Of a stretch of DNA of 64,000 bases, positions 55,432 through 59,278 are shown piece after piece. Position 1 is the stretch's first letter. Every line of letters begins with the position of its first letter. The stretch lies in NCBI RefSeq assembly GCF_024500045.1, contig NZ_JTEO01000004.1, positions 744,001 through 808,000 of the forward strand, read 5' to 3'. This stretch comes from Methanolobus chelungpuianus. Its GTDB lineage: Archaea > Halobacteriota > Methanosarcinia > Methanosarcinales > Methanosarcinaceae. The position numbers and the translations under genes are program-made. Under the pieces are notes generated by a model that did not search any database, was not told the origin of the DNA, and saw nothing but the letters and a program-made list of their open reading frames with translations.

Positions 55432-57237
55432 TCACGGACGTACGAGATATTGCTCTCCGCTATCCGCATTTACCACAAGTACTCCTGCTGACACAAGTTC
55501 ACTTATCTTCGCCTCTATCTCATTGTCAGAGAACTGTTTTGATACGAGGCTCTTGATTATGCTTCTCTTGACCTTCGCACCGCGCGGCATATACATGAGT
55601 ATATTGCCCTCGAGCTTTCCGGGTTTTGCGTTCTTCCCGGAGGGCTGGTTAATGGGGCTGTCCACCACAGGCTGCCTTTGCTGCTGCTGGAAAGGTGGCA
55701 CTGCAGCAGGCTGGATCTGCTTAAAGGGAGGGACCTGTGCATTTGTCACTGTTTCAGGTATCGGAGGTGCAATGAAAGGCGGCATCTTCTCTGTTTTTGC
55801 CGGCCCGGGCATATCGTGCAGTCTGAATAAGGGCTGGCCTGCTCCAGTGGGATCAGCTGCCTGTCCTGGAATATTGAACGCAGGCATTGCCAGCATCATC
55901 TCTTCGGCGTCTTCTGGAAGCCCCGGTCGGCTTCCGGGTTTTTCCGTGATTAACTCCCTTCGTTCATTCGTGAAATTATCGCCAGGAGCTTCGAACTCCG
56001 GCATCACGAATCCTGTTTCAGGGCCCGGCATTGGCTGTGGATTGATTTCCGGGATGATGAAGCCTGTTACGCTTTCAGGGCTTGCATGTTGCTTGAACTG
56101 CGGCATTACCAGCTCTTGCTCCTTTGTCGGGTGCTGTCCGAACGCAGGCATCACCAAGGCATGTTCAGCCATCTTTTTCTCCTGCCGGTCAAATAAGGGC
56201 ATTTGTGGAACCTGTTCGTCTATCCCGTTAATATCATTGTTGAAGGAGGGAGTCGCCTGGCTATGTTCGCTGACAGGAACTACATGCTGGTTGGGATCAC
56301 GCATTACCAGATCATGATTATTTGCAGCCATGGGCTGTTGCCCGAAAGCTGGCGGTGCGGATGCACTTTTACCCAGGGGGATCACATGCAGATTAGAATC
56401 CGGTATGAATGGCACTGCCTCACTATCATGGGCCTTATGCAGCTCGGGATCCTGCACAATTGAACTTGGTCCGCTTTGCGGGGTCCCATGCCTGTCGGGC
56501 TGCGGTCTTGCCTGGGCCGGCTCACTAAGATCAGCGGGCTGCCGGTCTGGTTCAGGTGTCATGGCCGGCTGGCTTTGGGGCATGTTCTGTTCTTTCATAT
56601 CATTTGCCGGTGTATGTGATCCGGTTGAGTGATCGGCCTGCAGGTCGCATTCAAAGGCCTCCCGGACGATATAGCCAGCCGGAGTTTCGTGGGCCATATA
56701 GTCGGGAATTATGATGTTCTCACAGACAGAAGGCATTGGCTCCTGCCGGAGTTCCGGTGTTTCCACGGGCAAGTTTGTCGGTACCTGCACAGAAGAGTGC
56801 AAAGACGACCGTGTGTCCATTTCCACATGCAGGAGCTCAGGTGCAGTTACACGGGTGATCTCCGTTGTGCATTTTTCCGCATCCAGGGGAATTATTATGG
56901 GGCATGCGGCTTCGTTTGCAACCTGTGCGAGGGGCCTGTCCTTATAGGAGATCAGTGAACCCGATGCAAGGAGCTCTGCTGTTGATTCAGGGCCGGAGCA
57001 CGCAACTACTTTTCCATTTAGATGCTTCTCTATCTCGCCTAGTTTTAAGAATAGCTCGTCCACGCTTCCTTTAAGTACATTGATGTCCGGTACCCATGGT
57101 CCGGTTGTGGCATTCGGTGCATCTTCAAGCATCTCCAATTCTCTTTCCAGCAATTTTCTGATGAACAGGCTCTTATTGTCTATCCTGTCCAGTTTCTCGA
57201 AAAGCTCATCAGACATGCTAATGGTCAGGCGTTTCAT
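55432..57237 (-). CDS. Ribbon-helix-helix protein with [MV]PxF repeats and C-terminal winged-helix-like domain
   Basis: The 601-residue protein has three parts. Residues 1-40 (MKRLTISMSDELFEKLDRID, then NKSLFIRKLLERELEML) are a ribbon-helix-helix DNA-binding domain, with a coiled-coil-like segment to about 75. Residues about 150-540 are low-complexity and rich in P, Q, M and H, with a recurring short motif [MVQI]-P-x-F: MPLF 346, MPAF 363, MPQF 378, MPEF 412, MPAF 451, QPLF 468, MPPF 485, VPPF 502, VPPF 513, with APPAF 295 and TPSF 329 as weaker copies. Residues 541-601 (EGNILMYMPRGAKVKRSIIKSLVSKQFSDNEIEAKISELVSAGVLVVN) look like a small winged helix. I know no family with this layout. GGGAG precedes the ATG. 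Function is probably gene regulation or nucleoid organisation. Confidence 0.85.
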   Translation of the reverse strand: MKRLTISMSDELFEKLDRIDNKSLFIRKLLERELEMLEDAPNATTGPWVPDINVLKGSVDELFLKLGEIEKHLNGKVVACSGPESTAELLASGSLISYKDRPLAQVANEAACPIIIPLDAEKCTTEITRVTAPELLHVEMDTRSSLHSSVQVPTNLPVETPELRQEPMPSVCENIIIPDYMAHETPAGYIVREAFECDLQADHSTGSHTPANDMKEQNMPQSQPAMTPEPDRQPADLSEPAQARPQPDRHGTPQSGPSSIVQDPELHKAHDSEAVPFIPDSNLHVIPLGKSASAPPAFGQQPMAANNHDLVMRDPNQHVVPVSEHSQATPSFNNDINGIDEQVPQMPLFDRQEKKMAEHALVMPAFGQHPTKEQELVMPQFKQHASPESVTGFIIPEINPQPMPGPETGFVMPEFEAPGDNFTNERRELITEKPGSRPGLPEDAEEMMLAMPAFNIPGQAADPTGAGQPLFRLHDMPGPAKTEKMPPFIAPPIPETVTNAQVPPFKQIQPAAVPPFQQQQRQPVVDSPINQPSGKNAKPGKLEGNILMYMPRGAKVKRSIIKSLVSKQFSDNEIEAKISELVSAGVLVVNADSGEQYLVRP

Positions 57238-57439
57238 TGCAATCTCCCGGTGTGTTACGTATATGTGGAATCATATCTTTGTATGCAAACATCATACATA
57301 TATAGGTAACGAAAATATATTTTAGAAGAATCGGAGAATGTAACATTTGCTGTATGTTGTATATTTAAAAATGAGAATAATAGAAAATGTCTATTTAAAT
57401 ATAGATAACTGCATGCTTGTCCGGATGATCGGGCCTGCA

Positions 57440-58213
57440 TCACATTTTCTTCTTGCAGTCCGGGCATGCTCTTCCCCGGGTAGTCTGGATAAAGGAATGC
57501 TTTGGCGTGATACACCTGCACAGGGGACAGAGTTCGTTCGTCCTGAATATTTTCTCCACTGCCTGCAGGTCTGCCTCATAGATGTGCGTGTCCCAGCCGG
57601 TGGCGATAAGGGAACTTATCTCATAGGGAAGGTTCTGCTCCCTGAACACTTTCTTGAAGCCCTCCACTATTGCCGGTATATTTGCGGGGAAACCTCCGAA
57701 GGCGTCCCAGGAACGGTACAGGATATATAACCTGACCTGCTTTTCATCGAGCAGCTCCACCTTATAGGCTATCCAGCAGGGCTGGTCCTCGAACTTGGGA
57801 ATATGGACCTCATTTTCCCAGAGCACTCCCACATGCCTCCTGGAACCCGGGCGCATGTTGGCAACGTTTGTGTTCAGGGTATCATAAGCTGCCTTCCCAT
57901 ACCTGAAAAGTTGCTTTGCATAGCAGTAATCGAACTTCCTCTTGTCGTCCTCAGGAAGTGAGATATACCAGTCAGCATACTCCTCAGTCAGTTCTTCCTT
58001 GTACTTGGTGATAAGATTCTCGCCGAAAGGAACTGCCTGATTCACCTGGTTGTTGTTCACGTCCTCTATGTATATGGTTGCATGGACCCTTTTCGTAGTG
58101 GATTTGTAATCCGGTTTGTGTAGCTCTCCTTTCTGATATATCTCGTATATGAGTTGCGACCATGCGGAAGAAATGCTTTTTGCCTTTATCAGTACAGCTT
58201 CCATTTTCATCAT
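57440..58213 (-). CDS. Thymidylate synthase-like protein with C-terminal zinc ribbon
   Basis: The 257-residue protein keeps the landmarks of ThyA: RPGSRRHVGVLW, the catalytic Cys in EDQPCWIAYKVEL (C146, where ThyA has P-C-H), LYILYRSWDAFGGFPANI (phosphate R167 and D170, N178 as in R-S-x-D-x-x-x-G-x-P-x-N-I) and TGWDTHIYEADL (H-x-Y of the dUMP site). The P-C-H histidine is W here. A zinc ribbon follows (CPLCRCITPKHS ... ACPDCKKK, residues 229-253), absent from usual ThyA. It may methylate or hydroxymethylate a pyrimidine nucleotide with a tetrahydrosarcinapterin C1 donor. Starts at 58213 and 58204 are both possible. It is 203 bp upstream of the repeat protein. Confidence 0.8.
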   Translation of the reverse strand: MMKMEAVLIKAKSISSAWSQLIYEIYQKGELHKPDYKSTTKRVHATIYIEDVNNNQVNQAVPFGENLITKYKEELTEEYADWYISLPEDDKRKFDYCYAKQLFRYGKAAYDTLNTNVANMRPGSRRHVGVLWENEVHIPKFEDQPCWIAYKVELLDEKQVRLYILYRSWDAFGGFPANIPAIVEGFKKVFREQNLPYEISSLIATGWDTHIYEADLQAVEKIFRTNELCPLCRCITPKHSFIQTTRGRACPDCKKKM

Positions 58214-58352: not shown

Positions 58353-59186
58353 CTAATTCCTGCCCACGAGCGCACTGGCAAGCATTATGGCCTTTGTGTA
58401 GTGTCCTCCTACCCTGGAAGTATCCACGAACACATGCCTGTCCATGAGAACGGGCGCTCCCATGCCATCTCCGCCTCCGAGGAAGACCAGTGTCCTGAAT
58501 ATGAGGTTACCGGATATGCCGTCCGGCGCAAGGATGAAATTCGCCTCCTTTATGGCGTCCTCGATAAGTATGGTGTAGTGCTTTGCACTGATACCTTCTT
58601 CCCTTATCCTGTTCACGATGAAATCGCCCTCTGCAAGGGTTTGGTCTACACGGGGATCTCTTCCGAGGTCGCCCATCCTGCCACCGGAAAGTACGCCCAC
58701 CACCGGCTCGATCCCGAACCTGCGTATATGCTCGACCCCTAGACGGATAAATGCTATCTTGTCCGCCAGGTCGTTCCCTTCATCTATTCCTACGGGTGCT
58801 ATGAAGAAAGGTTTTCCTTCGCTAGTCTTGAGCAGTGCTATACGATGGAGCTTATCCTGATCGAGTATCCTTTTGAGATGGGAGAGGGTGCCGGAAGCTT
58901 TTGCAGTGCCTCTTACCGCAGCATCAACGTATCCGGACTTCAAAAGGTCTCCAAGCACTATCTCCGGCTCGTTGGTGCCGACGATCTCGAGGTCCGTGCC
59001 AATTGATTCGATCTCTCTCTTGTCCCCTACGAGGACCACATGGGCATATCCTGCATCATGGGCGTCCTTTGCGCTCTTCAGCATTTTTGAGGTGGGGTCT
59101 CTGACGCCTATGGCAACCCGTGCTCTGTTCTGCAGAGCCCTTTGCTCTATGACTCCCAGCAGGTCTCCTGTTTTTTCCGGTCCCAT
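58353..59186 (-). CDS. mtxX: Methanogenesis marker protein Mmp4/MtxX
   Basis: The 277-residue protein has phosphate acetyltransferase-like sequence (RVAIGVRDPTSKMLKSAKDAHDAGYAHVVLVGDKREIESIG) and the typical tail DGISGNLIFRTLVFLGGGDGMGAPVLMDRHVFVDTSRVGG. MtxX is encoded in all methanogens and is named for a putative role in methyltransferase activation, with no proven biochemical role. ATG 59186 follows TAGGTATTTAGAC; an in-frame start at 59276 would overlap the divergent rfcL promoter. It is head to head with rfcL. Confidence 0.93.
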   Translation of the reverse strand: MGPEKTGDLLGVIEQRALQNRARVAIGVRDPTSKMLKSAKDAHDAGYAHVVLVGDKREIESIGTDLEIVGTNEPEIVLGDLLKSGYVDAAVRGTAKASGTLSHLKRILDQDKLHRIALLKTSEGKPFFIAPVGIDEGNDLADKIAFIRLGVEHIRRFGIEPVVGVLSGGRMGDLGRDPRVDQTLAEGDFIVNRIREEGISAKHYTILIEDAIKEANFILAPDGISGNLIFRTLVFLGGGDGMGAPVLMDRHVFVDTSRVGGHYTKAIMLASALVGRN

Positions 59187-59278
59187 GTCTAAATACCTAC
59201 CATTAGTGATATCAATCAGAACAGACAAAGATGTGCAAACCTTAATTAGTTTTCCCGGATATCCGGTGATGATCATCT

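Follow-up and report, generated by a model that had tools for sequence, protein, structure and literature searches.

A methanogen protein family joining a predicted ribbon-helix-helix domain, a variable motif array and a winged helix, with a candidate operator over its own promoter

A 601-residue protein encoded by Methanolobus chelungpuianus belongs to an unannotated, previously unnamed family of probable DNA-binding proteins of methanogens, in which a predicted N-terminal ribbon-helix-helix (RHH) domain is joined through a disordered, motif-bearing middle to a C-terminal winged helix. The array has a regular repeat period, the repeated peptide is under selection, and a single conserved element lies upstream of the gene. 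The best joint reading of these features is that the protein autoregulates through its RHH domain and uses its tail to dock several copies of a putative partner, and we put the chance of this being right at about even. The window, here and below, is the whole 64,000-nucleotide stretch of DNA that was analysed; its features are collected in Table 1. Genera other than Methanolobus are cited by code (g3, g4 and so on), and f7 denotes another family.

According to this model, an RHH dimer would bind a set of GTATG half-sites, arranged as a palindrome across its own promoter, and would repress transcription of its own gene, so that the protein level would be held steady. The rest of the protein would do the work. 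It has a long disordered stretch with a selected putative docking motif, FxMP[ED][LF], in an array amplified by duplication of a 51-bp unit. This tether would capture several copies of one putative partner protein, and the winged helix at its end would more probably contact a protein than read a DNA site.

Table 1. Positions in the window of the gene, its domains, the upstream sequences and two neighbours
Feature	Position	Strand	Basis or remark
Gene for 601-residue RHH/motif-array/winged-helix protein	55432..57237	minus	Stop codon 55432-55434
Predicted ribbon-helix-helix domain, residues 1-38	57124..57237	minus	Alignment; AlphaFold2 helices; weak Pfam RHH_1 and weak NikR profile matches
Predicted coiled coil, residues 49-74	57016..57093	minus	Helix in AlphaFold2 model; profile matches here mostly coiled coils
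Disordered middle, residues 75-537	55627..57015	minus	pLDDT <50 nearly throughout (AlphaFold2)
Decayed 17-residue repeat array, residues ~295-517	55687..56355	minus	Nine [MVQ]PxF and two further PxF (296, 330)
Winged-helix domain, residues 538-601	55435..55626	minus	Model pLDDT 92; VIA-align Z up to 10.2
Operator-like element GTATG-N7-CATAC-N4-[GA]TATG	57272..57297	minus	Phylogenetic footprint; only genome copy
Weak fourth half-site CCTAT	57302-57306	minus	Beside operator-like element
TATA-box-like stretch (AAAATATA)	57312..57325	minus	Conserved just upstream of element (upstream-region alignment)
Thymidylate-synthase-like neighbour with C-terminal zinc-ribbon pattern	57440..58213	minus	Context
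mtxX/methanogenesis marker 4 neighbour	58353..59276	minus	TIGR03270 above cut-off; context

Protein architecture

The gene was first picked out by a sequence-only reading, which proposed the three-part layout and called the protein unrecognised. Both statements stand. The open reading frame is present, on the minus strand, which that reading had left unnamed, and the full-length AlphaFold2 model has helices at residues 10-17 and 22-38 (RHH), a further helix at 49-74, pLDDT below 50 across most of residues 75-537, and a winged helix at residues 539-600 with pLDDT of about 92; the disordered part comes to about 460 residues. Searches of Pfam, NCBIfam and PADLOC with the whole protein found no family covering its 601 residues, and PHROGs returned one weak, unnamed match. 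Separate searches of the two ends against profiles of solved structures, which the same reading had recommended, returned mainly coiled coils for the N-terminal part, and for the C-terminal part no significant match.

Assignment to the RHH (MetJ/Arc/CopG) superfamily is a prediction that rests on a sequence pattern and two modelled helices, since the match to Pfam RHH_1 (residues 3-21) reaches 13.4 bits, below the cut-off of 20.5. The alignment of homologs has a conserved N-terminal pattern, MKRLTISMSDELF..NKSLFIRKLIERELD, and 12 invariant columns within the first 34 residues; the RHH beta strand is absent from the AlphaFold2 model, which is a monomer model. That RHH proteins bind DNA as dimers was given as established in the earlier reading, and the strand residues R3, T5 and S7 are predicted to read DNA. 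Proteins of this superfamily bind half-sites that are repeated or palindromic, and a conserved palindromic element of matching form is present upstream of the gene (see below).

The C-terminal domain, modelled alone, has a pLDDT of 92.0 (AlphaFold2) and the winged-helix topology H1-S1-H2-H3-S2-S3 (helices at 4-11, 21-28 and 34-46, strands at 18-20, 51-55 and 58-62), and the homologs share seven invariant columns in their last 64 residues. The best VIA-align matches are the winged helices of Pyrococcus abyssi Rpa2 (Z 10.2; structure determined in complex with primase and PolD) and Mcm5 (Z 10.1), which share with this domain the fold and also a terminal position beyond a flexible linker. However, identity to Rpa2 and MCM winged helices is only 13-18%, many unrelated winged helices lie within one Z unit, and the present protein, which has a disordered middle and no Pfam match, has neither an OB fold nor an AAA+ domain. 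Because DNA-binding repressors are among those following within one Z unit, the fold is compatible with more than one function. Helix 3 is the usual DNA-reading helix of winged helices; here it is acidic in 13 of 15 aligned homologs, and the H2 region is basic. Given this acidic helix, and with the protein-binding Rpa2 among the best structural matches, the domain need not bind DNA, and we lean towards one that would contact a protein rather than read a DNA site. A match to MCM5_C (E 0.002, below threshold) was set aside as a sign of homology, since similarity of that order is seen between winged helices in general.

The upstream element

The operator-like element, TATATATGTATGATGTTTGCATACAAAGATATG, is found about 60 bp ahead of the start codon; its half-sites are conserved in an alignment with 24 relatives while the flanks drift. 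Of 29 upstream regions taken from Methanolobus and its close relatives, 24 score 12-15 of 15 for the pattern GTATG-N7-CATAC-N4-GTATG, and three more have the element with a 6-base spacer. Exact copies in ten genomes of the genus each lie just upstream of this gene, and the other matches with one mismatch are at the level of a reversed-pattern control. In the 2.6 Mb genome from which the window comes there is one occurrence even of the two-half-site form GTATG-N7-CATAC, and a search for a regulon with the element found no target beyond the gene's own promoter. The outer fourth half-site, weak in Methanolobus, is perfect in g4, where the element fits the full palindrome at 20 of 20 positions and is again found at this gene only.

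None of the eight homologs with the RHH strand MKELKIS, MKELKVS, MKELTIY, MRQLKID or MKKISVN has the element. The homologs of g23 and g6 keep the strand MKRLTIS, yet have no clear element, and the correspondence of strand and element does not amount to a set of independent events, because the homologs are related. Nonetheless, a unique, conserved element that is absent where the RHH strand has changed points to autorepression through the RHH domain, and since it lies just downstream of a TATA-like sequence, a protein bound there would be expected to block transcription. On these comparisons we consider it probable that the protein represses its own gene. The element, which the sequence-only reading had missed, would give the RHH domain a concrete role. 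The g3 upstream regions (L079, L081, L085, L091, L092) have instead a conserved TATG-N13-CATA, which may be either an operator re-spaced to suit the altered RHH strand or simply a TATA box.

The repeat array

All nine [MVQ]PxF motifs reported for the window protein are present, at residues 346, 363, 378, 412, 451, 468, 485, 502 and 513. When residues 81-535 are shuffled, the mean count is 0.41, and none of 20,000 shuffles reaches nine. The reported near-regular spacing is likewise real, lags 17 and 34 being the two highest in the autocorrelation of the protein, as one or other of them is in nearly all Methanolobus homologs. The repeat holds as described, but the phenylalanine in the motif does not, since relatives have L or F at that position. 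Across 219 units the repeat is 17 residues long with the consensus FxMP[ED][LF]KPPEQ, and the nine window motifs appear to be the decayed remains of a tandem repeat with a strict 17-residue unit. The window array is among the weakest, with a lag-17 identity of 0.13 compared with up to 0.58 (L022). In a tree of four neighbouring genes the window genome is nested inside Methanolobus, a position that would fit decay of the array without being proof of it.

Between units of the same protein, pN is lower than pS in 23 of 23 arrays, with a synonymous excess of about fourfold in several (L013, L022, L024, L025, L026), and the core FxMP[ED][LF]K is the most conserved part of the unit. As synonymous differences exceed amino-acid differences in every array, the repeat peptide has been selected and kept after duplication. 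In the window clade selection on the motif is weak (pN/pS 0.14/0.36 in the core, 0.18/0.34 in the rest of the tail).

The sequence-only reading had proposed a survey of motif number among homologs, and had named as its refutation homologs with both end domains and no PxF motifs. The motif recurs, but its number is far from constant: Methanolobus homologs have between 1 and about 20 copies and the homologs overall 0 to 20, while the length of the tail ranges from about 60 to more than 550 residues. The core, as [FLI]x[MIF]P[ED][LF], is also found in g4, g24 and two other members of the family, with unit lengths of 16-18, and g3 (TLSFPELKIPPELL) and one g23 species each keep a single copy. Homologs of the refuting kind do occur: those of g6, g8, f7 and one g23 species retain both end domains and have no motif. 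The array is thus a lineage-specific elaboration rather than a defining feature of the family, which, since homologs persist without motifs, must have a core function other than docking. When the genome was searched for the coding pattern of the consensus MP[ED][LF]KPP, which might have revealed other motif proteins, it matched this gene only, and no partner for the motif was found.

The earlier proposal of multivalent docking must accordingly be narrowed. A repeated motif under purifying selection is better accounted for by a docking peptide than by neutral filler; as a family-wide property, docking fails on the motif-less homologs. That the tail is a multivalent docking region, its motif binding a partner, is a reading to which we would give slightly less than an even chance, and bridging of DNA by the protein, also proposed earlier, seems improbable.

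Several further features of the tail were observed. Many Methanolobus homologs (e.g. L013-L019, L022, L024-L026) have a second conserved short motif, KLSE[LIM]VAEK, in single copy before the array, in place of which the window clade shares [QE]P[LI]F[RK][LI]H after the array. In g3, the gene at L085 5746-7692 has an independent 18-residue array of different sequence (SPSLPDPLDSPLISDSVI-like) in the same tail, beside the single TLSFPELKIPPELL motif. In three drafts the two ends of the gene are on different contigs (G008 C69/C73, G018 C144/C26, G020 C172/C102), the assemblies probably breaking inside the array, and gene callers will consequently report two partial genes.

Distribution and gene neighbourhood

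Each of the 26 further genomes of the genus has a homolog, as do several more genera of Methanosarcinaceae, and f7 has a distant homolog of 165 residues without a tail. No homolog was found in the Methanosarcina-like g7 and g11 or in g5, and a profile search of 393 genomes of the phylum returned no convincing relative outside the class.

The conserved neighbours are mtxX, mtxAH or a thyA-like gene, ilvD and rfcL. The genes mtxA and mtxH encode soluble homologs of MtrA and MtrH and are known to lie in one operon with mtxX (PMC4632066, PMC3087415), and in g3, g4, g6, g8 and f7 the gene considered here directly follows them. In Methanolobus and g23 their place is taken by the thymidylate-synthase-like gene, the window copy of which scores 78.7 bits, below the cut-off of 174.6 bits for methanogen ThyA. 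One MtrH-type match is left in each of G000, G026 and G016 (Methanolobus) and G096 (g23), which keep mtxX and seem to have lost mtxA/mtxH. In f7 (L089, 2298-8543), mtxA-mtxH and the RHH/winged-helix gene lie between archaellum genes (an ArlH match, ArlI/ArlJ-like) and a trp operon.

Alternative explanations and known systems

It may be that the tail is a passive spacer, in which 51-bp repeats expand and shrink by slippage and conservation keeps the chain soluble and extended, the protein then being no more than an autoregulator of the RHH type to which a winged helix is tethered. The wide range in tail length and motif number, the motif-less homologs, the decay of the window's own array and the g3 genome with an 18-residue array of different sequence would all suit such a spacer. 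However, it would need no FxMP[ED][LF]K core, and is weakened by the selection on that core and by its recurrence in g1, g4, g24 and other family members despite different unit lengths, or as a single copy in g3; we regard it as possible but unlikely. A regulator of the mtxX-mtxA-mtxH one-carbon methyltransferase operon, in which the gene is usually last, is a quite doubtful alternative. The gene's position after the mtrA-like and mtrH-like genes would suggest it, but a dedicated methyltransferase role is made unlikely by the survival of the gene where mtxAH has been swapped (Methanolobus and g23) and by the Methanosarcina-like g7 and g11, which keep mtxXAH without it. The g4 element, moreover, lies between mtxH and this gene rather than before mtxX.

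The upstream element could instead be bound by another factor, such as NikR, itself an RHH protein, although the chance of this appears slight. The strand of E. coli NikR, MQRVTIT, is similar to that found here, and both proteins have the RHH at the N-terminus. E. coli NikR binds GTATGA-N16-TCATAC, so that the half-site GTATGA is shared (PMC7055735), and one NikR is encoded in the window genome, elsewhere than at this gene. Its strand, MRIGVSL, is not of the RxTxS form. In the element, the inverted GTATG and CATAC are 6-7 bases apart and are accompanied by more half-sites, an arrangement that differs from that of the NikR operator, and NikR was rejected as the owner of the element. Furthermore, NikR is present in g3 and g8, which are without the element, the element occurs at this gene only, and the nickel-binding C-terminal domain of NikR, PF08753, is absent from the present protein, in which no Pfam family was found. 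A role in chromosome organisation or segregation, with RHH foci and self-associating repeats bridging DNA, would resemble SegB and is a distant prospect. The SegB of Sulfolobales has an RHH and binds palindromic sites that lie upstream of the operon encoding it; in Metallosphaera it has lineage-specific 14-residue tandem repeats in variable number (PMC12284271). SegB, however, is accompanied by the ParA-type SegA, whereas no SegA/ParA gene recurs beside the present gene, where other genes are conserved. Its RHH is C-terminal rather than N-terminal, its repeats are predicted to form a beta-helix rather than to be disordered, it lacks a winged helix, and it binds many chromosomal sites, whereas the high-scoring site here is unique in the genome.

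Two other systems offer partial likenesses. In PutA, an RHH domain controls the protein's own gene and the remainder is an enzyme. The present protein would be a comparable autogenous fusion, in which the remainder does another job, but that remainder is a disordered motif array and a winged helix. Borg genomes have in-frame tandem repeats in archaeal genes that encode disordered, selected regions; those repeats are extrachromosomal, recent and near perfect (PMC9879509), whereas this array is chromosomal, in a conserved gene and partly decayed. The gene is not Borg-encoded, because it sits on an 879-kb contig beside the core genes rfcL and ilvD and is syntenic across the genus.

Implications

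Taking the RHH autoregulator with a docking tail further, the protein could be a self-limiting scaffold with a single target: the only strong genomic site would be its own promoter, the disordered tail would gather copies of the partner, and the valence would be set in each species by 51-bp duplication. This extension is a tentative one, and we hold it to be less than likely. To our knowledge, few multivalent disordered scaffolds are known in archaea. The present family adds an unannotated group of methanogen proteins with a clear candidate DNA site that can be tested cheaply. Its homologs form a natural series differing mainly in the count of one selected motif (0 to ~20), and are thus a ready system for the effects of motif valence in archaea.
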